A DNA stretch of 13,430 nt from an uncultured Porphyromonadaceae bacterium (GTDB lineage: Bacteria; Bacteroidota; Bacteroidia; Bacteroidales; Muribaculaceae), in NCBI GenBank assembly GCA_947175455.1, contig CAMWMW010000004.1:1-13430 (forward strand), in the 5' to 3' direction. The stretch's first letter is position 1. Every line of letters begins with the position of its first letter. The notes beneath the pieces are model-generated. The model worked only from the letters and a program-made list of their open reading frames with translations. It was not told the DNA's origin and did not search any database. The position numbers and the translations under genes were made by a program. This document shows positions 472 through 10,623 of the stretch, in pieces.

Positions 472-482
472 TTACTTTTAGT
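472..482 (-). promoter_or_regulatory. Shared leader motif ACTAAAAGTAA (copy 1)
   Basis: An exact copy of the 11-nt element found before eight genes in this window, here 5 nt before the ATG at 466. It is A-rich, as expected for a Bacteroidetes translation-initiation region without a Shine-Dalgarno sequence. It is perfectly complementary to the predicted 5' end of the small RNA at about 591-660. Confidence 0.75.
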
Positions 483-495
483 TTATTTGGATATG

Positions 496-527
496 TAAAG
501 GTAGTGAGATTTTTTGAATTGACCAAA
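496..527 (-). promoter_or_regulatory. Bacteroidetes-type promoter for the 466 gene
   Basis: On the minus strand a -33 box TTTGG (523-527) is followed, after 19 bases, by the -7 box TACCTTTA (496-503). This fits the TTTG/TAnnTTTG consensus of the Bacteroidetes primary sigma factor, with A for the final G. Downstream comes CATATCCAAA and then the shared leader. The same arrangement recurs at 2892-2923, 4897-4928 and 10555-10586. Unlike those three, no GTTTAAC pair is seen upstream. Confidence 0.75.
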
Positions 528-590
528 TAAAATTGCATTTATTTTGCTATTAATCAGTATTTTATAATCACACTTCTACACAAATCTTAT

Positions 591-623
591 AAAAAAAAAG
601 ACGCGACCCTCACGGGCAGCGCC
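591..623 (-). terminator. Intrinsic terminator with GTGA loop and nine U
   Basis: The stem arms are around 600-609 and 614-623, with the loop on the minus strand reading GTGA. There is one mismatch and two G-U pairs. A run of nine T follows on the minus strand. It ends the candidate small RNA and could also stop read-through from the MutS-domain gene ending at 769. Confidence 0.8.
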
Positions 624-660
624 ATCCAATACGCCTGATTTCTCAGGCACACTAAAAGTA
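591..660 (-). ncRNA. Candidate small RNA, antisense to the shared leader
   Basis: Reading the minus strand, a -7 box TATCTTTG (666-673) is followed by about 70 nt with two compact hairpins and nine U. Hairpin 1 (633-648) is GCCTGA-GAAA-TCAGGC, a perfect 6-bp stem with a GNRA tetraloop. Hairpin 2 (600-623) has a GTGA (GNRA) loop, a CCC/GGG inner stem, one U-C mismatch and a GC-rich outer stem, and runs straight into the U-tract (591-599), so it acts as an intrinsic terminator. The RNA should start within about 655-661, so its unpaired 5' end would read (U)UACUUUUAGUGU. That is the exact antisense of the ACACTAAAAGTAA leader placed before eight genes here. I see no convincing coding frame in it. 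Its role as a trans-acting regulator is an inference. Alternatives are a terminator plus an inverted fragment of a leader, or a member of a known Bacteroidales small RNA family that I cannot identify. Confidence 0.6.
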
Positions 661-665
661 ATATG

Positions 666-768: not shown

Positions 769-1278
769 TCAGTCAAATAATGATGGTGGATTCATTTCAT
801 AACAATCTTCAAACGCTCTTCTTGGAGAGACTCCAATGCTTACAGCAAGATTCTTTAATTCTTGCGTTTTAAGGCGTATTTCCTCAAAGATGGATAGTTT
901 GTTAAGAATCTCGTTAAAGGCTGTGAGAATCGGGAAAAAAGGGGTTAAATCCGGCATTTCATGCTTTGGTATACCTCGTTTTTCAAGTTTCTTTGTAAGC
1001 CGAGGGTCTTCAAGTTGCTCACATATCGCTACGCGCTTTCCGGCTCTTACCAATCTTGGCAGATACGTGTCGAGCGCATAATGAGGAAATCCGGCAAGTT
1101 CAATATACTTATCGTTGCCAGTTGCTCGTCTGGTTAAAGTTATGCCAAGGACAGAAGATGCCACCACTGCATCTTCATTGAGACATTCATAGAAATCTCC
1201 TAATCTGAACAGAAGCACCGCATCCGGGTGCTTCCTCTTCATTTCTGAGTATTGCTTTATGAGTGGTATCTGTGCCAT
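769..1278 (-). CDS. Stand-alone MutS domain I (mismatch-recognition) protein
   Basis: The 169-residue product matches only the N-terminal DNA-binding domain I of MutS. Roughly residues 1-95 contain the family signatures [12 protein letters not shown], a TLTRR segment, [12 protein letters not shown] and [10 protein letters not shown]. The mismatch-contacting Phe-X-Glu motif is kept (F29-Y30-E31, equivalent to Phe36 and Glu38 of E. coli MutS). The connector, lever, clamp and ATPase domains are absent, as full MutS is over 800 residues. The C-terminal 70 residues are unlike MutS and end in PSLFD, which loosely resembles a sliding-clamp-binding tail. Short MutS-domain proteins occur in Bacteroidales mobile elements, but their job is unknown to me. 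Binding distorted DNA or interfering with host mismatch repair are possibilities. The ATG lies 2 nt after the stop of the preceding gene (TAATCATG), so it is translationally linked to it. It is last in the unit that starts at 2854. Confidence 0.85.
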
Positions 1279-2964: not shown

Positions 2965-3888
2965 TTATAATCCGAAAATCATGTCAATTGCCTTCTCTGC
3001 CTTTCCAGCAGCCGCTATAAATGCCTTCGGATCACTTGATAGAAACCTTGCCCATGACTTGAGATAGGCAGCACTGTTCTCTTCCGTTTCTTTGCATTCT
3101 ATTCCAAGCTTTGACATACATGCGGCTGCTCCAATTTCTGCGACAAGCTCTTCTCGCGAATACTTCTCATTTGCTTTGTGTACCCCTCCCTTCAGACGGT
3201 TCAATCTTGACGGATGCCCGGTGGAATGAGTCAGTTCATGAAACAATGTGGAGTAAAATTCTGAAATTTCTGAGAACTGCTCTCTGAGTGGCACTGTTAC
3301 GGAATCTGATGCAGGACGATAGAATGCAGAATTACTTTTCTGTATTATCAGAGTCACACCGCTTCGTTGACAATACTGAGATGCTGTATTTTCCGCGTTT
3401 TCTATCGGATTGATGGTTGATATTAATTCCGGTTCTTTAGGCTGATATTTGGCTTTTATTCCCTCTGTATCGTCGATATGGAACACCCTATAATATTTAA
3501 GTACTGGGTTCTTCCATGCCACCCATTGGGTTTCCTTTTCATCATCCTGACTGTCTTCCTCTCCTTCAGGAGCCTTGACCGGTTTCAGTCCCCCGCATTG
3601 CCAAAACACTACAACATCTGATTTCGCACCTTTCTTGACACTGCCCCCCTCTTTCTTAATCTGGTTGAAAGTAAGATACTCCCCTGACCGGAATCCGAGA
3701 AGTATCTGATTCAGCAATGAGTATGGCTTACCATTGGTATGACTCACTGCCACATCTTCCACACAATGTGACCATGGTTTTCTCCAAGGATTTATGCCCT
3801 GCTCCATGATGGAGATGAGCTTGTTTGTTACTTGCTCGCAGATGCTTTGTTCTACCTGTGCAGCAGTTTTCTTTTCTTTCGTCTTCAT
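2965..3888 (-). CDS. ardC: ArdC-like antirestriction protein (ssDNA-binding plus zincin)
   Basis: The 307-residue product has the two-part ArdC layout. The N-terminal ArdC-like single-strand-DNA-binding domain (about residues 10-140) includes GINPWRKPW, a typical YSLLNQILL segment, FNQIKKEGG and VVVFWQ. The C-terminal zincin-like metallopeptidase domain (about 170-300) has HELTH at 217-221 (HExxH) followed by STGH and, 25-30 residues later, EELVAEIGAA supplying the likely third ligand. ArdC proteins are carried by conjugative plasmids and phages and are reported to protect incoming DNA from restriction. The frame opens upstream at a TTG (3918). I chose the ATG at 3888 because the longer form would translate the shared leader (3888-3898), whose last A is the first base of this ATG. 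It is the last gene of the unit starting at 4867, downstream of two DUF-type genes. Confidence 0.88.
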   Translation of the reverse strand: MKTKEKKTAAQVEQSICEQVTNKLISIMEQGINPWRKPWSHCVEDVAVSHTNGKPYSLLNQILLGFRSGEYLTFNQIKKEGGSVKKGAKSDVVVFWQCGGLKPVKAPEGEEDSQDDEKETQWVAWKNPVLKYYRVFHIDDTEGIKAKYQPKEPELISTINPIENAENTASQYCQRSGVTLIIQKSNSAFYRPASDSVTVPLREQFSEISEFYSTLFHELTHSTGHPSRLNRLKGGVHKANEKYSREELVAEIGAAACMSKLGIECKETEENSAAYLKSWARFLSSDPKAFIAAAGKAEKAIDMIFGL

Positions 3889-3898
3889 TACTTTTAGT
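3888..3898 (-). promoter_or_regulatory. Shared leader motif ACTAAAAGTAA (copy 3, ArdC)
   Basis: An exact copy, extended to ACACTAAAAGTAAT, that abuts the ArdC start: its final A is the A of ATG. It is internal to an operon, with no promoter boxes next to it, so the element appears to act at the RNA level. Fourteen bases match the small RNA antisense. Confidence 0.7.
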
Positions 3899-3910
3899 GT
3901 TACCTGATGA

Positions 3911-4306
3911 CTAACCAATTTCTTGCTCTCTGATCGTTATTGAAGCTTGGGTCATTATCCTGTACTCCGGACTGTCTCCATCATCCATTACCGGATGAAA
4001 CTCATCATTCTTGATGTTGCCACCAATTACCAACGTTGACCAGAGGAATGCCTCCCTGTGTTCAGGATTCCTCAGATTGTATATCATTTCAATCTTATAG
4101 TGAGAAACTTTCCCATTCCTTTTACGTATGGTCTCAACATATTCAATACCACAGTGTGTCTCAGACCTTGCAATCATCGTCTGCTCTTCGATTATCATGT
4201 CAAGCTGCCTTTCAGCATCTTCTCTTGACATGCAGACAATAGCGTAAGTCTCAATCTTTGACTCTGTCGGATCATAGCCGTAGCCCTGTATTACATATAT
4301 CTTCAT
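3911..4306 (-). CDS. Hypothetical protein, 131 aa
   Basis: I do not recognise the family. The protein opens MKIYVIQGYGYDPTESKIET, has a segment SREDAERQLDMIIEEQ likely to be helical, and a C-terminal half with scattered charged residues. The layout suggests a small alpha/beta protein. No membrane or export signal is seen. Its ATG overlaps the TGA stop of the DUF3846 gene (ATGA), so it is translationally coupled to it and lacks its own copy of the shared leader. ArdC follows 22 nt downstream. The role is unknown. Confidence 0.75.
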   Translation of the reverse strand: MKIYVIQGYGYDPTESKIETYAIVCMSREDAERQLDMIIEEQTMIARSETHCGIEYVETIRKRNGKVSHYKIEMIYNLRNPEHREAFLWSTLVIGGNIKNDEFHPVMDDGDSPEYRIMTQASITIREQEIG

Positions 4307-4578
4307 ATCTCGTGCTCCTTACATATTACGACATCTCCAACAATATAATCAGTCAAATGAATCGCTCCTCTTGACAAGGCTATGAATGATGCGGTTTGAT
4401 TTGCGGGATAACCTTTCAGTTTTCCTTCCTCATCAAGTATCATGACCTCTCCATTATCCAGATAGATTATCTGGATATAGCCGCCTACCAATTTCTGAGC
4501 TTCTTCAAGCTCAAACTTCTTTCCATTTCCAGGAGTGATTGTCTTTTTAACTCCGTTTACTTTAATTAATGTTGCCAT
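4303..4578 (-). CDS. DUF3846-domain protein, 91 aa
   Basis: The small soluble protein matches the DUF3846 pattern: a short N-terminal strand (MATLIKVNG), then ELEEAQKLVGGYIQIIYLDN, a strand-turn DEEGKLKGYPAN, and a C-terminal DYIVGDVVICKEHE strand pair that resembles the usual IVGTVVI ending. Proteins of this family are common in phages and mobile elements and have no established biochemical function. The frame extends to 4605, but the first nine codons would be the shared leader itself, so the ATG at 4578 is preferred. The stop of the upstream gene (4592-4594) lies inside the leader copy at 4586-4596. The gene is second in the ArdC unit and overlaps the next gene by ATGA. Confidence 0.82.
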   Translation of the reverse strand: MATLIKVNGVKKTITPGNGKKFELEEAQKLVGGYIQIIYLDNGEVMILDEEGKLKGYPANQTASFIALSRGAIHLTDYIVGDVVICKEHEI

Positions 4579-4585
4579 ATTGTTA

Positions 4586-4596
4586 TTACTTTTAGT
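4586..4596 (-). promoter_or_regulatory. Shared leader motif ACTAAAAGTAA (copy 4)
   Basis: An exact copy, extended to ACACTAAAAGTAAT, 7 nt before the ATG at 4578. The stop codon of the upstream gene (TAA, 4592-4594) is inside the motif, so a bound antisense RNA would also cover the termination site of that gene. Confidence 0.7.
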
Positions 4597-4867
4597 GTTC
4601 GTCAATGTCGAATTTAACTCCGATTTTCATGTCGTCGCTGAAGTATCGTAGTATATTCTCGCTCTTTGTCTGATACTCTCCGAATGGACTATAAACCTCA
4701 AGTTCGTCAAATGAAATCCATTCGTCATTGGAGTAGTCTATGCCATCGAGCAGGAGTTCAAATACATCGTTTGCATACTTGAGGTCAGAGAAGTATCTTT
4801 TGCTTTCATTTTCTCCCGTCTTCAGCCATTTGCTGATATTGTGGGTTATTCTGTAAACTTTGTTCAT
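4592..4867 (-). CDS. Hypothetical protein, 91 aa
   Basis: The family is not recognised. This small soluble protein begins MNKVYRITHNISKWLKTGEN and has an acidic middle and end (for example YSNDEWISFDELEVYSPFGE). The frame runs up to 4927, but the extra 20 codons would translate a promoter and the leader, so I place the start at 4867, 5 nt after the shared leader (4873-4883). It is the first gene of the unit that goes on to DUF3846, an unknown protein and ArdC. Its stop codon is embedded in the next gene's leader. The promoter at 4897-4928 faces away from the plus-strand toxin operon, with about 75 bp between the two -33 boxes. Confidence 0.78.
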   Translation of the reverse strand: MNKVYRITHNISKWLKTGENESKRYFSDLKYANDVFELLLDGIDYSNDEWISFDELEVYSPFGEYQTKSENILRYFSDDMKIGVKFDIDEH

Positions 4868-4872
4868 CACTT

Positions 4873-4883
4873 TTACTTTTAGT
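4873..4883 (-). promoter_or_regulatory. Shared leader motif ACTAAAAGTAA (copy 5)
   Basis: An exact copy, preceded by AA (AAACTAAAAGTAA), 5 nt before the ATG at 4867 and downstream of a full promoter. Confidence 0.72.
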
Positions 4884-4896
4884 TTGATTGGATGTG

Positions 4897-4928
4897 TAAA
4901 ATTAATATTAGTTTTACTTTTATCCAAA
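4897..4928 (-). promoter_or_regulatory. Bacteroidetes-type promoter for the ArdC operon
   Basis: The -33 box TTTGG (4924-4928), 19 bases, then TAATTTTA (4897-4904), are followed by CACATCCAA and the shared leader. A GTTTAAC pair lies 24 bp upstream of the -33 box. Confidence 0.72.
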
Positions 4929-5258: not shown

Positions 5259-7844
5259 ATGCCGAAACCTAAGATTCCCAACCAACGTAAAGTCAACATT
5301 GAGCATAAAAAGCGCATCGAACGCTATGCCATACTGATTCAACAGGTCTATGACAAGATGGCTCAGGAGGCGGCAAGACTTGCCGTCATTGCAGGAGCCG
5401 ACACTTCAAGACCTTTTTCATTTGCTGACTATCCATTGACTAAAGAGGCTGTAAAACGGTTGCAAACACAACTCATGAAAGATGTTGGGGCAATAATAAT
5501 GTACGGTACTTCCGAGGAATGGAAGGAATCGAATCTTGTGCAAGACCTGGTGGCAAAGAAAGTGCTTACCGCTTATACAGGAACCTCAAAACTGGGAGAG
5601 GAGTATTCGCGATATTTCGAGACCAATCCAGATAGCCTCAAGGCATTCCAACAACGGAAAGAGAATGAAATGAATCTTTCTTCAAGAGTTTGGAATCTTT
5701 CGGAACAATATAAGCCGGAACTGGAGGAGGCTATTACCGCTGCCATTGCTCCGGGGACATCTGCCATGTCTTTGGCGGCTCAGGTAAAGAAATATCTTAA
5801 GGAACCTGACAAACGTTTTCGCAGAATCAAGGAAAAGATGGAGGATGGCACAATCAAATGGCACCTGTCAAAGAACGCAAAGGCTTACCATCCAGGTCAA
5901 GGCGTATATCGTTCGTCTGCCCGCAATGCACAGCGTCTCGCACGTACTGAAATCAATATGGCATACCGCACTGCCGAACAGGAACGATGGAAACAGTTCG
6001 ACTTCGTGGTCGGCTATGAAGTAAAGACAACTCAGAACGGTCACCATGTGGAGGACATGTGCGACATGCTTGCCGGCAAATATCCTAAAACGTTTCAGTT
6101 CACAGGATGGCACCCGCAATGTATGTGTTACTGCATACCGATTCTCAAAACAGAGGAAGAGTTCTGGGCAGATGATGATGTCAAGAGCGTAAATGAAGTG
6201 GCTGATGTTCCGCAGAATTTCAAAGAGTGGATAAGAGATAATGGAGACCGTATAAATGCCGCTGAAAAGCGCGGAAACCTGCCTTATTTCATCCGAGACA
6301 ACAAGGATGATGTGGAGAATGTTTTGTACCCGGAATTGCGTAAGAAAACACCTATAGAGATTGCATCAGAACGTCATGCAGCACGCAGCGCAGCTGACAT
6401 CAAGGATATTAAAGATCGTTGGAATGCAAAACTACAGAGGGATGCCAATATAAAAATGGTCGCAAACAATGTGCTTAAAGTGGCTCAGCAATGGAGCGAA
6501 ATAGACTATTCACAATTGGAGCAGATGATTGCAGATAATAATATTACTGCACTTACCGAAGAGTCAAGGAAAGTAGCCCAGGCAGTCAAGGCGATGCGCA
6601 ACGAGGAAAAGGCACTTTCTGATTTGATTCCGGATGTCCACACTTGGCATGATCAGTTCTCAATTGAAGAACTGAAGGCTGTTAAAGAAGCTGTCTCAAA
6701 TACAATATCCAAACTTGACCAATCTACATTTGAATCATTCAAGTCCAATCTTGCTTTTGAGGCAGACTGGGTGATTGAAAACTCTTCTTATGCCACAAAG
6801 TTTGTTGCAGAAGCAGCTTACAAGAACCAGATAAAGATTGTCAACGAGAAGATTTATTGGAGGGATATTAAATCATCTTCTGAGAATTATATATCCAAAC
6901 TTGAATCTGTAAATCCAAAACTCGCAAAGAAACTATCAAAAGATTTTGATGTAGCTGTTGCAAACGGAAATAAAAAGGGAGCAGAAGCCTATATTTACAA
7001 CCTCAGCAAATGGGATAAAATCATAAATCTGCATTCTTCCTTGTCAAATGGAGGAATTGATATTGCCGACTTCGAAAAATTCATCAAAGAAGGCATGCTG
7101 AATAAGGCTTGGACTGAATACAACAAGCTGAAAACTTCACAGCTTGGGAATAACAATTTGGAGGAATACTGCGCAAAGCAATATACAACCAAATTCAATG
7201 TTCATGATCAAGACTCATACACAAAAACAATGAAAACCCTAATAGGTGACTGCCATGACGCTTGGATAAATGCTCCGGAAGAGGAACGTAGAGCCATTAT
7301 TAAATATACTGGGTCATATTCAAAAGAAATGATAGTCGACAGAGCCTCTGGGAAATCAAACGAACTTGTAACACATCTTGACTCATTGCTTGATAAAATT
7401 AAATTGTCTGAAGACATGGTTTTACGCAGTGGTCAGGATTTCTGCGTTCCAAGAATAATATTTGGCGATGATTTCGCCAACTTACTCGAAAGCGAAGACT
7501 TGGACTCCCTGAATAAAAAATTCTCCGGTCACAAAGGATTCAATGGAGGATATATGTCCACATCATACAACGAACACGGAGGATTTAGAGATAAGGATAT
7601 TGAATTTCATATATTCGCACCTAAAGTTACACATGGAATGATTGCAAATCAGATATCTTCATGCGCTGAAGACAGAGGTATTGACTGGGATGCTGTATCA
7701 TTCAGAAGCGATTGGAGAGAACGCGGAGAGTCTGAATTTTTACTTCATGGAGGATATATTTATAAATTTATCAAGGCAGAGAAAGATACTCGGATGAGTG
7801 ATACGGGCATAAGATTATACATACAAATATTAGGTAGAAAATAA
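5259..7844 (+). CDS. MuF-type phage minor head protein with C-terminal ADP-ribosyltransferase domain
   Basis: This is an 861-residue polymorphic-toxin-like head protein. The N-terminal part (about residues 80-300) is a phage Mu gpF/SPP1 gp7 minor-head domain: RLARTEINMAYRTAEQERW, a VGYEVKTTQNG strand, and the closing FTGWHPQCMCYC, where MuF proteins usually end in HPxCxC. A long, mostly helical charged linker follows (about 300-640). The C-terminal 210 residues are an ADP-ribosyltransferase of the R-S-E class: HLDSLLDKIKLSEDMVLRSG with the NAD-binding Arg (R723), GYMSTSY with the STS motif (767-769), and RGESEFLLHGG with the E-x-E catalytic pair (E824, E826). The E-x-E motif is typical of Arg-modifying enzymes. 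MuF-toxin fusions are known in temperate phages and are thought to enter the host with the DNA, much as T4 Alt does. The frame begins at a TTG (5235), but the ATG at 5259 avoids overlap with the upstream gene. The stop codon abuts the convergent small gene. Confidence 0.9.
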   Translation: MPKPKIPNQRKVNIEHKKRIERYAILIQQVYDKMAQEAARLAVIAGADTSRPFSFADYPLTKEAVKRLQTQLMKDVGAIIMYGTSEEWKESNLVQDLVAKKVLTAYTGTSKLGEEYSRYFETNPDSLKAFQQRKENEMNLSSRVWNLSEQYKPELEEAITAAIAPGTSAMSLAAQVKKYLKEPDKRFRRIKEKMEDGTIKWHLSKNAKAYHPGQGVYRSSARNAQRLARTEINMAYRTAEQERWKQFDFVVGYEVKTTQNGHHVEDMCDMLAGKYPKTFQFTGWHPQCMCYCIPILKTEEEFWADDDVKSVNEVADVPQNFKEWIRDNGDRINAAEKRGNLPYFIRDNKDDVENVLYPELRKKTPIEIASERHAARSAADIKDIKDRWNAKLQRDANIKMVANNVLKVAQQWSEIDYSQLEQMIADNNITALTEESRKVAQAVKAMRNEEKALSDLIPDVHTWHDQFSIEELKAVKEAVSNTISKLDQSTFESFKSNLAFEADWVIENSSYATKFVAEAAYKNQIKIVNEKIYWRDIKSSSENYISKLESVNPKLAKKLSKDFDVAVANGNKKGAEAYIYNLSKWDKIINLHSSLSNGGIDIADFEKFIKEGMLNKAWTEYNKLKTSQLGNNNLEEYCAKQYTTKFNVHDQDSYTKTMKTLIGDCHDAWINAPEEERRAIIKYTGSYSKEMIVDRASGKSNELVTHLDSLLDKIKLSEDMVLRSGQDFCVPRIIFGDDFANLLESEDLDSLNKKFSGHKGFNGGYMSTSYNEHGGFRDKDIEFHIFAPKVTHGMIANQISSCAEDRGIDWDAVSFRSDWRERGESEFLLHGGYIYKFIKAEKDTRMSDTGIRLYIQILGRK

Positions 7845-8150
7845 TCATCCTAAAAAAGGCATATTGTCGTATTCCTGTATCTTTTCAAGTGTTTTGGCTG
7901 ATATAGGGATTCCTATTGCCCAATCGTCGTGATACATTGATAAGCCATTCTTGACAAATCTGTTTATCGTTTCAATAATCTTAATATCATCTCTGGTATT
8001 GTCAGAAACACACTCCCTTATGGCTGCCCGTTCGTTCAACCATAAGATGTATTTATACTCATCTTCTTTTGTGTTTCGTGAGTAAGGAAATTCTTCTTCC
8101 CCTCGAAATACCTTACACCACTTCAAATACTCATTATTAATCATGTCCAT
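7845..8150 (-). CDS. Hypothetical protein, about 101 aa, between ARH and the ART toxin
   Basis: I do not recognise the family. The product is soluble and acidic, with aromatic-rich stretches (EYLKWCKVFRGEEEFPYS, YKYILWLNERAA) and a C-terminal MYHDDWAIGIPISAKTLEKI. Possible starts are ATGs at 8171, 8150 and 8144. I list 8150, which has an A-rich upstream sequence. The ATG at 8144 is equally plausible because it nearly overlaps the ARH stop (8137-8139). All choices overlap the 3' end of the ARH gene, so the two are translationally coupled. Its stop codon (7845-7847) directly abuts the stop of the MuF-ART gene on the other strand. Position suggests a role in controlling the ART, for example as a second immunity factor, but nothing in the sequence proves it. 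Confidence 0.7.
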   Translation of the reverse strand: MDMINNEYLKWCKVFRGEEEFPYSRNTKEDEYKYILWLNERAAIRECVSDNTRDDIKIIETINRFVKNGLSMYHDDWAIGIPISAKTLEKIQEYDNMPFLG

Positions 8151-8901
8151 ATCTTTTTTCAAATTTATCAACTACTGTAATCATTTCTTCAGGCAAATAA
8201 CTCATAGCCTTAACCATAATTTCTTTTGGAACTCCAAACAATGGTTCTGCAATTGAACCGACTATGGCTCCGAGAGTATCAGAGTCTCCTCCATGTGAGA
8301 TTGCTTTTCTAATGGCATCCTCAAATGAGGTGGATTTAAGAATAATCTGAAAGGCAAGAGGTACAGTTCCTATACAGGTTTCATCAAACTTACCTTTTGG
8401 GTAATCCTGTGTCATAAATCCATAATAAAACGAATTGCCAATATGCTCTATATCTTTGGAATCGCGATTGAATCTTAAGGATGATATTGCCAACGCTACC
8501 GACTGCGCACCTTTGATTCCCTCGGCATGATTATGAGTGGTCGATGCCATCTCTCCGGCTTCTTTTATCACATCATGATACACATCAAACGCCCAGCCAA
8601 CCGGACTTGCACGCATGGCTGATCCGTTACCATAGCTATTATATGGATGAGGATCGTCTGAGAATATCCATTGCTGAAACGAGCATCCGTATGCTCCCAT
8701 GGGATTCGGATATTTTCGGCACCATTCCAACAATGAATCCTTATAAGACTTTCCTTTAAGGATGGCATCAGCAATGGCTATAGTGCAAATGGTATCATCT
8801 GTAAAACTTCCATTTTCTGAAAACAGAGGAAAGTTATAGTCAAATGTATTATTGAACTCGTAAACAGACCCAACTATATCACCAATAATTGCTCCAATCA
8901 T
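8137..8901 (-). CDS. ADP-ribosylglycohydrolase (ARH/DraG family)
   Basis: The 254-residue enzyme has the complete ADP-ribosylglycohydrolase pattern. N-terminal MIGAIIGDIVGS is followed by the first metal-binding motif TDDT (34-37), then GNGSAMRASPVGW (91-103), HNHAEGIKGAQSVALAI (123-139) and the second metal site GGDSDTLGAIVGSIAEP (204-220). These acidic residues normally hold two Mg2+ (or Mn2+) ions and cleave ADP-ribose from modified protein side chains, typically Arg. Length and motifs suggest an intact, active, cytosolic enzyme. It lies tail to tail with an ART of the Arg-modifying type and is coupled to the small gene at 7845. An ARH acting as antidote to an ART effector is known from the Tre1/Tri1 type VI pair of Serratia. 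I infer a similar pairing here. It has its own promoter and would be expressed independently of the toxin. Confidence 0.92.
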   Translation of the reverse strand: MIGAIIGDIVGSVYEFNNTFDYNFPLFSENGSFTDDTICTIAIADAILKGKSYKDSLLEWCRKYPNPMGAYGCSFQQWIFSDDPHPYNSYGNGSAMRASPVGWAFDVYHDVIKEAGEMASTTHNHAEGIKGAQSVALAISSLRFNRDSKDIEHIGNSFYYGFMTQDYPKGKFDETCIGTVPLAFQIILKSTSFEDAIRKAISHGGDSDTLGAIVGSIAEPLFGVPKEIMVKAMSYLPEEMITVVDKFEKRYGHD

Positions 8902-9492: not shown

Positions 9493-9729
9493 TCAAGCCC
9501 TGTTATAATGTGCTAACGCATTATTTACTATCTCTTTTCTTGTGTCATAGTCAAGCATGGAATAAAACAATGCCGGGGCACCATCCGATCCGCATTCTTC
9601 ACATGCCTTGATCCACTTTGACCAGATATGGATTCCAAGCATTTCTCCGAATATGCGAACACAAATAGAATTATTCCACTGATTCCACATGTAATAGAGA
9701 TAACAATCAAGTTCTGATCCCTTATTCAT
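9493..9729 (-). CDS. Hypothetical protein, 78 aa
   Basis: I do not recognise it. It is a small protein rich in Trp, Tyr and Cys (LDCYLYYMWNQWNN, WIKACEECGS) with a C-terminal helix (DYDTRKEIVNNALAHY). The two nearest Cys form CEEC, which could bind metal or be redox active, but one pair alone is weak evidence. The shared leader (9737-9747) lies 7 nt before the ATG. It is third in the operon starting at 10522, with its successor one base away. Confidence 0.7.
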   Translation of the reverse strand: MNKGSELDCYLYYMWNQWNNSICVRIFGEMLGIHIWSKWIKACEECGSDGAPALFYSMLDYDTRKEIVNNALAHYNRA

Positions 9730-9736
9730 AGCTTTA

Positions 9737-9747
9737 TTACTTTTAGT
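9737..9747 (-). promoter_or_regulatory. Shared leader motif ACTAAAAGTAA (copy 6)
   Basis: An exact core copy, here preceded by CA rather than AC, 7 nt before the ATG at 9729 and 3 nt after the stop codon of the upstream gene. It is internal to the operon with no promoter boxes. Confidence 0.7.
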
Positions 9748-9750
9748 TGG

Positions 9751-10239
9751 TTACAACGTTTTCATATAATCAGGAAGAGCGTCAATGATGGCAGCACATT
9801 CCTGCTGTGAAATTTCATTTATCGAGAAGAGCTGCTCAAACTCATCAACGAGTTTACAATGCCCGAGTTTACCATTTCTCCCAACTTCAGTTATCTTGAC
9901 TTGAGTCGCAAATTCATCATCACAATGATAGAGAACTGTGACAGGTGTAATCAGCTTGATATACTCGTTGCAATCAAGCTTGCGAATAATACGTCTGAGA
10001 TTATTTCTTGGCGTCGATATATTGTTTCGTGGTCTTTCAGTTCCAAGAAGCTCTCCATTCTCTCCAATCCAAAGCATAGTGCCATCACCATTCCACGTAA
10101 AATCAAATGCCTTGTTGATCGGATTGTATTTGCCAAGAAGTACCGTCCCTTCTTTGAGTCCTCTGATTTCCGCAAGGCACCACTTGCCAAATTCTGTGTA
10201 GACTTTTACCTTCGCACGAGCTTTAACAGTCTTTATCAT
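9751..10239 (-). CDS. Hypothetical protein, 162 aa
   Basis: The family is not recognised. It has a basic N-terminus (MIKTVKARAKVKVYTEFGKW), a beta-rich middle (for example FDFTWNGDGTMLWIGENGEL), an Arg/Asn-rich patch (TERPRNNISTPRNNLRRIIR), and a C-terminal segment QQECAAIIDALPDYMKTL. It is soluble, with no signal peptide. The basic patch could contact nucleic acid, but I cannot assign a fold. The shared leader (10245-10255) stands 5 nt before the ATG. It is second in the unit with the 86-aa and 78-aa proteins. Confidence 0.75.
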   Translation of the reverse strand: MIKTVKARAKVKVYTEFGKWCLAEIRGLKEGTVLLGKYNPINKAFDFTWNGDGTMLWIGENGELLGTERPRNNISTPRNNLRRIIRKLDCNEYIKLITPVTVLYHCDDEFATQVKITEVGRNGKLGHCKLVDEFEQLFSINEISQQECAAIIDALPDYMKTL

Positions 10240-10244
10240 GATTC

Positions 10245-10255
10245 TTACTTTTAGT
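10245..10255 (-). promoter_or_regulatory. Shared leader motif ACTAAAAGTAA (copy 7)
   Basis: An exact copy, extended to ACACTAAAAGTAAG, 5 nt before the ATG at 10239. It is intra-operonic, directly after the stop of the 86-aa gene. Confidence 0.7.
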
Positions 10256-10261
10256 GTTAAA

Positions 10262-10522
10262 TCAATAGGTTGTCACTCTCACGCCTCTTCCGGAACGCGT
10301 TACTATCACTCCGACAAATTCGGCATTCTCGAAATCTTCATTGTCAGTCTCCCATGCTGTATATGAAAGACGGTCAATGTTTCTGTTGTTTTTCATCAAC
10401 TCACTTCCGAGTCCTTTGATGAATAGTACAACCTGTCTTTTAGTCATTGGTTCTGTTGTCATGAGATAACCTCCACATATGTTTTCAGAATCTTTGATTT
10501 CTATGTCAAACTTGGTCTTCAT
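10262..10522 (-). CDS. Hypothetical protein, 86 aa
   Basis: The family is not recognised. This small soluble protein has an N-terminal strand (MKTKFDIEIKDSE), a central helix (TKRQVVLFIKGLGSELMKNN), and C-terminal strands ending VTRSGRGVRVTTY, an arrangement that fits a small alpha/beta fold. It heads the four-gene unit driven by the promoter at 10555-10586. The shared leader is only 2 nt before its ATG, so a bound antisense RNA would cover the start codon region directly. The function is unknown. Confidence 0.75.
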   Translation of the reverse strand: MKTKFDIEIKDSENICGGYLMTTEPMTKRQVVLFIKGLGSELMKNNRNIDRLSYTAWETDNEDFENAEFVGVIVTRSGRGVRVTTY

Positions 10523-10524
10523 AC

Positions 10525-10535
10525 TTACTTTTAGT
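10525..10535 (-). promoter_or_regulatory. Shared leader motif ACTAAAAGTAA (copy 8)
   Basis: An exact copy, extended to ACACTAAAAGTAAG, 2 nt before the ATG at 10522 and downstream of a complete promoter. Confidence 0.75.
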
Positions 10536-10554
10536 GTTTATAATTTTGGATGTG

Positions 10555-10586
10555 TAAAATTAGTAATAATATTTGAGTTTGCCAAA
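10555..10586 (-). promoter_or_regulatory. Bacteroidetes-type promoter for the 10522 operon
   Basis: The -33 box TTTGG (10582-10586), 19 bases, then TAATTTTA (10555-10562), are followed by CACATCCAAAA and the shared leader. The -33 box coincides with the end of the U-tract of the portal terminator just upstream. Confidence 0.75.
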
Positions 10587-10623
10587 TAAAAACATCAGAT
10601 AATCAGTTGACTATCTGATGTTT
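10587..10623 (-). terminator. Intrinsic terminator of the portal gene
   Basis: A perfect 12-bp stem (AAACATCAGATA, 10612-10623, with TATCTGATGTTT, 10590-10601) has a 10-nt loop and is followed on the minus strand by TTATTT. It lies 21 bp beyond the portal stop codon and immediately before the next operon's promoter. Confidence 0.85.

Follow-up and report, generated by a model that had tools for sequence, protein, structure and literature searches.

A candidate trans-acting antisense RNA of a temperate Bacteroidota phage, predicted to pair with the mRNA of a LuxR-type regulator and with a leader shared by early phage genes

The stretch of DNA analysed here, the window, is 13,430 nucleotides long and constitutes a whole contig (G000:C4) of a 2.0-Mb, 67%-complete MAG. 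It consists of phage DNA, with genes for a portal protein (phrog_64) and a MuF-type head protein with a match to an ADP-ribosyltransferase family, and also harbours ArdC-like, RadC-like and MutS-domain-I genes. The MuF-type head protein gene (5259-7844, plus strand), for which the best PHROG is named Bxa ADP-ribosyl transferase, adjoins an ADP-ribosylglycohydrolase gene (8137-8901, minus strand), a pair that might possibly constitute a virion-carried modifier together with its eraser; a homologue of the eraser with 64% identity is found in phage Versailles. The 169-aa gene at 769-1278 (minus strand) comprises MutS domain I only, and in a related phage, G694, the matches to this gene and to the gene at 2144-2854 lie within one 339-aa ORF. 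Another relative is present on contig G228:C37 (34,795 bases), and the ArdC gene has a counterpart of 93% identity on CAMWID010000037.1, a contig of an uncultured 'Porphyromonadaceae' MAG. The window starts with a break at a G/C homopolymer (1-15); contig C121, a continuation of the prophage, stops in this same tract immediately before a leader gene, and its other flank is unlike that of the window. C121 is 94% identical to G228:C37 over 6.1 kb, adjoining the region common to the window.

On the minus strand, a small antisense RNA of approximately 70 nt is predicted at 591-661, with its 5' end at 659-661. Its putative promoter combines a weak -33 element, TTTT (694-697), with a -7 box, TATCTTTG (666-673), 20 nt downstream, to be compared with the consensus TTTG/TAnnTTTG for Bacteroidota-type promoters (PMC7366714). 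Across the four phages found to carry the RNA, TAnnTTTG is always present, and the promoter reads TTTG-N20-TAnnTTTG in G694 and G811 and TTTT-N20 in the window. The transcript would begin with a 5' tail antisense to a shared leader (the seed, 649-662), followed by hairpin 1, GCCTGA-GAAA-TCAGGC (633-648), a second pairing segment, TTGGATGGCGCT (618-629), which extends from the linker into the stem of a terminator hairpin with a GUGA loop (600-623), and a tract of nine U read from the sequence (591-599), all on the minus strand. Both loops, GAAA and GUGA, are of the GNRA type. All elements postulated in the initial annotation, a minus-strand -7 box followed by a predicted RNA of about 70 nt with two GNRA hairpins and nine U, are present in sequence and fold. 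The folding energy of -30.7 kcal/mol (z -4.96) was equalled or surpassed by none of 200 shuffled sequences. Part of the tail of the window copy is predicted to pair with the linker by G-U-rich pairs, which counts against a free seed; in G228, G694 and G811 the tail is predicted to be unpaired. A search of the window against 4227 Rfam families, including c4, gave no match at E ≤ 1. An imperfect inverted repeat, possibly a regulator site, surrounds the -7 box of the RNA (654-680); it is longer in G694, and none is visible in G811.

The leader, ACTAAAAGTAA, occurs in eight exact minus-strand copies, each situated 0-7 nt upstream of an ATG, with the copy of the ArdC-like gene overlapping its own ATG by one base. 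These copies precede the genes at 41-466 (phrog_15742; leader at 472-482), 2144-2854 (2862-2872), 2965-3888 (ArdC-like; 3888-3898), 4303-4578 (DUF3846; 4586-4596), 4592-4867 (4873-4883), 9493-9729 (9737-9747), 9751-10239 (10245-10255) and 10262-10522 (10525-10535), and one additional exact copy lies on the plus strand at 651-661. All nine matches with at most one mismatch are these nine exact copies, versus 0.23 expected, and none of 200 shuffled sequences reached nine. The full 14-mer ACACTAAAAGTAAT is found three times (plus strand, 649-662; minus strand, 3887-3900 and 4585-4598; expected 0.00), so that only two of the eight targets possess all 14 bases. The proposal that the 5' tail is the exact antisense of a leader before eight start codons is thereby confirmed; of the 11-14 contiguous bases of complementarity suggested per target the lower end holds and the upper end moves to 15, as the eight leader genes show 11, 12, 13, 13, 13, 13, 14 and 15 contiguous Watson-Crick pairs with the first 18 nt of the RNA. 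For 14 other starts in the window, one of them truncated upstream by the end of the contig, the corresponding values are 3-6.

Throughout the whole genomes, ACACTAAAAGTA-N0-9-ATG was matched nine times in G000, eight times in G228 and three times in G694. All 20 matches, two of which are the RNA's own complement, are confined to seven contigs with the phage or its continuation (C4, C54 and C121; C37 and C78; C43 and C48), with none elsewhere in the three MAGs and none for the reversed control in each genome. As judged from sequence, the leader is private to the phage element. With four leader genes on C54 and one on C121, the window phage reaches about 13. Promoters of leader genes (window 472-530, 2862-2925, 4873-4925 and 10525-10590) exhibit the frame TTTGG ... 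TA-N-TTT-T/C-A/G ... CATATCCAAA or CACATCCAAA. The extended frame (TTTGG ... ATCCAAA) is present also on C54 and C78 and may be the operator of a phage repressor. It is absent before the RNA, which is therefore probably under separate control.

The RNA has been recognized in four phages, namely the window, G228 (96% identity), G694 (79%) and, reached via its regulator, the 62-kb viral contig IMGVR_UViG_3300014964_000001 (G811), where an RNA of like build resides at a different place; among 111 genomes of the genus, three, counting that of the window, carry it. Compensatory changes preserve both hairpins. Hairpin 1 is formed by GCCTGA/TCAGGC in the window and G228, TCCTGA/TCAGGA in G694 and GAGCTG/CAGCTC in G811, and the terminator stem differs at several positions and still pairs, with the exception of one T-C mismatch in the window and G228. 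In the four phages, the RNA strand folds with -27 to -31 kcal/mol and its complement with -15 to -20 kcal/mol.

Searches with a covariance model gave a match in 69 of 111 genomes of the genus (E ≤ 0.5) and in 123 of 277 genomes of the family (E ≤ 0.05), with only the three known RNAs above 75 bits and the next best matches at 35.6 and 38.7 bits, respectively. Among 19 weak matches listed, the 16 that showed the match itself resemble ordinary terminator hairpins. Exact-pattern scans of viral contigs retrieved one match for promoter plus seed (a start-codon leader in an unrelated contig), 16 for the -7 remnant plus hairpin 1 (none RNA-like), eight for the seed plus CTGA (all one and the same coding stretch) and 22 for the seed plus the second site, of which the single real one was the already known G811. 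BLAST of the RNA region against phage records delivered three short promoter-like matches only. With the weak matches set aside and the pattern scans yielding no new member, the RNA family comprises four members. On G694:C43, around 5700-5775 (plus strand), the stop codon of the portal gene is overlapped by a second copy of the anti-leader sequence, CTTTTAGTGTT, with a terminator downstream (27.5 bits); this copy may represent a 3'-end RNA with the same seed, or chance.

The initial annotation had suggested searching related elements for covariation between the 5' end of the RNA and the leader, with a changed leader beside an unchanged RNA as the contrary outcome; in G811 the tail follows the leader. 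Here, leader-like sites before genes read CCTAAAAGC, CCTAAAAGC and ACTAAAAGC instead of ACTAAAAGT (one of the three is separated from its ATG by 12 nt, and two sites are counted under a stricter rule), and the RNA tail has become GCTTTTAGG. From the window to G811, two double compensatory changes are seen in the seed, the leader changing from AAAAGT to AAAAGC with the RNA changing from ACTTTT to GCTTTT, and the leader changing from ACTAAAA to CCTAAAA with the RNA changing from TTTTAGT to TTTTAGG. AAAAGC is found in all three G811 sites and CCT in two of them, and through the loss of outer seed pairs 12 pairs at the regulator are reduced to 10. As leader and RNA tail change together, pairing with the shared leader is supported, and the pairing of the RNA with its targets is very probably real. 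On the other hand, the regulon is labile. RadC possesses the leader in G694 and lacks it in the window, a DUF3846 homologue in G694 is without leader, and at 1e-6 G811 contains no homologue of any of the eight window genes with a leader. Prophages with other regulator homologues, on 11 contigs and in phage Versailles, contain few [AC]CTAAAAG[CT] sites just before a start (none in 10 of the 11 contigs, one in G127:C67, and one in Versailles versus eight target sites in the window); the leader regulon is not common to them. Of the earlier account of one antisense RNA acting on a whole regulon, the pairing with the shared leader is supported, but the account is incomplete, because membership of the regulon is labile and a regulator on another contig has a second pairing site.

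This regulator belongs to an early module on C54, C78 and C48, which encodes a DnaB-like helicase, a Sak4-like protein, a small repressor-like HTH protein and a LuxR-type regulator with a GerE domain (phrog_10300), and which on C78 additionally includes an S24 repressor and an integrase. We infer that G000:C54 is part of the prophage of the window; G811 is the only phage with portal (62% identity) and regulator module (regulator 70%) together on one contig. The LuxR-type regulator on G000:C54 is the most extensive predicted target of the RNA. Its leader is present twice in the window phage, G228 and G694, and just upstream of the leader the site AGCGTCATCCAA can pair with the second segment of the RNA. 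Of the 12 pairs, two have undergone double compensatory changes and one has turned from G-U into G-C between the window and G811 (target AACGCTATCCAA, RNA TTGGATAGCGTT). The second site of G694 (target GCAACACTTTTTTCCTTCTGA, RNA TCAGGAGGAATAAAGTGTTGC) is unrelated and comprises 21 bases, with 19 standard pairs, one G-U pair and one mismatch. The orientation of the sites permits simultaneous pairing, with the tail on the leader, hairpin 1 at the junction and the second site upstream. The G694 RNA resembles a diverged inverted copy of approximately 43 nt of the regulator's 5' region, which might hint at how such RNAs arise.

The second site was first spotted by eye in the window phage and G694, and G811, found via regulator and seed, is its least biased test. 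By gapped duplex energies, binding no weaker than that of the regulator is attained by 644, 128, 0 and 78 of 2000 random segments (window, G228, G694 and G811, the order used throughout), so that the regulator stands out in G694 alone; this poor discrimination arises because long loops let random segments score well, and an ungapped helix score was chosen after this had been seen. The G694 RNA scores 42.5 on its own target versus 13, 16 and 18 on those of the other three phages, the G811 RNA 33.5 versus 20.5, 21.5 and 17, and the window RNA 28.5 on its own site and on the identical one of G228, 27.5 on that of G811 and 16 on that of G694. When starts were ranked (at most two ATGs per ORF of at least 45 aa, excluding, in the window and G228, the complement of the RNA itself), the regulator came first in all four phages among 149, 286, 384 and 360 starts, with scores of 28.5, 31.0, 39.5 and 33.5 versus 28.0, 27.5, 29.5 and 28.5 for the next start; as the margin in the window is small, the window phage alone would not convince. 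The own value was reached by 18, 8, 2 and 1 of 3000 random 55-mers, a pool that can include the regulator site itself, and by 8, 5, 0 and 1 of 2000 shuffled 3' parts of the RNA.

Could the RNA be an antisense RNA of the regulator alone, with the other leader genes matching via a common translation signal and the seed by itself having little effect? The restriction of the second site to the regulator, its first rank in four of four phages, the doubling of its leader and the coming and going of other regulon members between relatives would be in line with such a restricted role, which we nevertheless consider unlikely, since seven other genes in the window have at least the 12 contiguous pairs of the regulator's seed site, and since the leader change in G811 affects all three leader-like sites and not that of the regulator alone. 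That the RNA activates or mainly stabilises the leader mRNAs is highly improbable. Seed pairing at a 5' end can protect an mRNA; the paired stretch, however, ends 0-9 nt from the start codon, so that the bound RNA should hinder the ribosome, and A residues near the start favour translation in Bacteroidota (PMC7366714).

Two further readings question the RNA or the leader itself. The plus-strand copy at 649-662 is directly followed by an ATG and might be seen as the ordinary leader of a plus-strand ORF (663-872, 69 aa), rendering the minus-strand RNA illusory. This is hardly conceivable, as G694 has no start codon at this place and the best start rule finds no ORF, promoter and U-tract face the minus strand, in four of four phages folding is far more favourable for the RNA strand than for the complement, with covarying stems, and in G811 an RNA of the same build sits elsewhere. 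Equally, the chance is very remote that the leader motif serves a phage regulator as a DNA half-site, with the copy at the RNA promoter as an operator. The inverted repeat around the -7 box, AAAAGTAgTAT...ATAtTACTTTT, with its extension in G694, would agree with a half-site, but no such repeat is seen in G811 and its upstream arm in the window resembles promoter-like stretches in many genomes of the family; besides, the copies at genes are single, keep a fixed place relative to start codons and are present inside operons, and the second site would be left unexplained.

We therefore prefer, with a probability of roughly 0.68, the reading that a trans-acting antisense RNA of a temperate Bacteroidota phage represses a LuxR-type regulator and a leader-sharing early regulon in the service of lysogeny or immunity. 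That the RNA and its structure are conserved, and that both pairing sites covary with their targets, is shown by comparison between the phages. The RNA, of about 70 nt, would be transcribed from its own promoter to its own terminator, and its 5' tail would pair with the private leader, which lies in the initiation region of some dozen phage genes. The second segment would pair with the regulator mRNA just upstream of the regulator's leader, such that two sites of this mRNA would be bound, with hairpin 1 located at their junction. In place of Shine-Dalgarno sequences, initiation regions in Bacteroidota show an enrichment of A at -3, -6 and -11 to -15 (PMC7366714). Since the leader places ACTAAAAGTAA in this A-rich region, the RNA would cover the stretch used by ribosomes that do not rely on Shine-Dalgarno pairing, and we propose that translation of the regulator would consequently be lowered strongly and that of the leader regulon to some degree; pairing probably turns the target genes down. 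As its promoter seems separately controlled, the RNA would be made apart from early transcription and block translation of the regulator and early genes. The regulator presumably promotes lytic growth, and the nature of the targets, the regulator (phrog_10300), the Sak4-like protein and others, suggests a role in lysogeny or immunity, in which the prophage is likely kept silent and the same genes of an incoming relative are silenced.

Among phage RNAs, the c4 antisense RNA pairs at two places and is processed from the same transcript as its target. The c4 RNA of P1/P7 pairs around the ribosome binding site of a regulator mRNA and underlies heteroimmunity (PMC12197685). Like c4, the window RNA shows complementarity to the mRNA of a phage regulator within its initiation region, at two sites and in four phages. 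Unlike c4, it is without a match to an Rfam covariance model, has a promoter and a terminator of its own, is encoded at a distance from its target (approximately 29 kb in G811, thus not on the same transcript), has a LuxR-type target and carries a seed that also matches a multi-gene leader. The sar and OOP RNAs have one target each and are encoded opposite to it. Both P22 sar and lambda OOP are small phage antisense RNAs directed at the mRNA of a developmental regulator, with sar blocking translation initiation of ant (PMC12197685). The window RNA, in contrast, would act in trans on several targets, and features of a trans-acting bacterial sRNA are recognized at the sequence level: promoter, seed, intrinsic terminator, targets elsewhere and covariation of seed and target. 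In Salmonella and E. coli, many mRNAs are silenced by GcvB, which covers a stretch of the initiation region that enhances translation (PMC3879156), as the window RNA would do; GcvB, however, is host-encoded, functions in a Shine-Dalgarno host and is unrelated in sequence, with no Rfam match in the window. GibS and other sRNAs of Bacteroides thetaiotaomicron are intergenic with promoter, terminator and two seed regions (PMC7366714). The window RNA resembles GibS as a Bacteroidota RNA with promoter, terminator and two pairing regions, predicted here, whereas GibS is chromosomal with a metabolic role. The CI RNA of satellite phage P4 is a small RNA that serves as phage immunity factor and acts on transcription of its own operon's leader, unlike the window RNA, which is predicted to cover translation starts. 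By analogy, the window RNA would work like P1 c4 and P22 sar and, regulon-wide, like GcvB, a likeness of presumed action that does not in itself imply family membership.

More speculatively, and with considerable doubt, the system might be viewed as a translation code that the phage family keeps private in a host making no use of Shine-Dalgarno pairing, with the leader marking the early genes and the RNA as the key, such that co-drift of both would render phage types heteroimmune by base pairing. The many leader mRNAs may even soak up the RNA and release the regulator, bound at both sites, only past a threshold of early transcription, which would amount to an RNA-titration switch between lysogeny and lysis.

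No description of a phage-encoded regulatory RNA of Bacteroidota was found in the open-licence PubMed Central literature, and the main text of a 2025 review of phage sRNAs holds no word beginning with 'bacteroid' (PMC12197685). The control of translation starts is poorly known in Bacteroidota, and the mechanism lends itself to direct testing with the matched and mismatched RNA-leader pairs that occur naturally. If the proposal is true, one phage RNA would control a whole regulon via a leader kept to the phage itself, and phage types could be kept apart by base pairing and not by repressor proteins.
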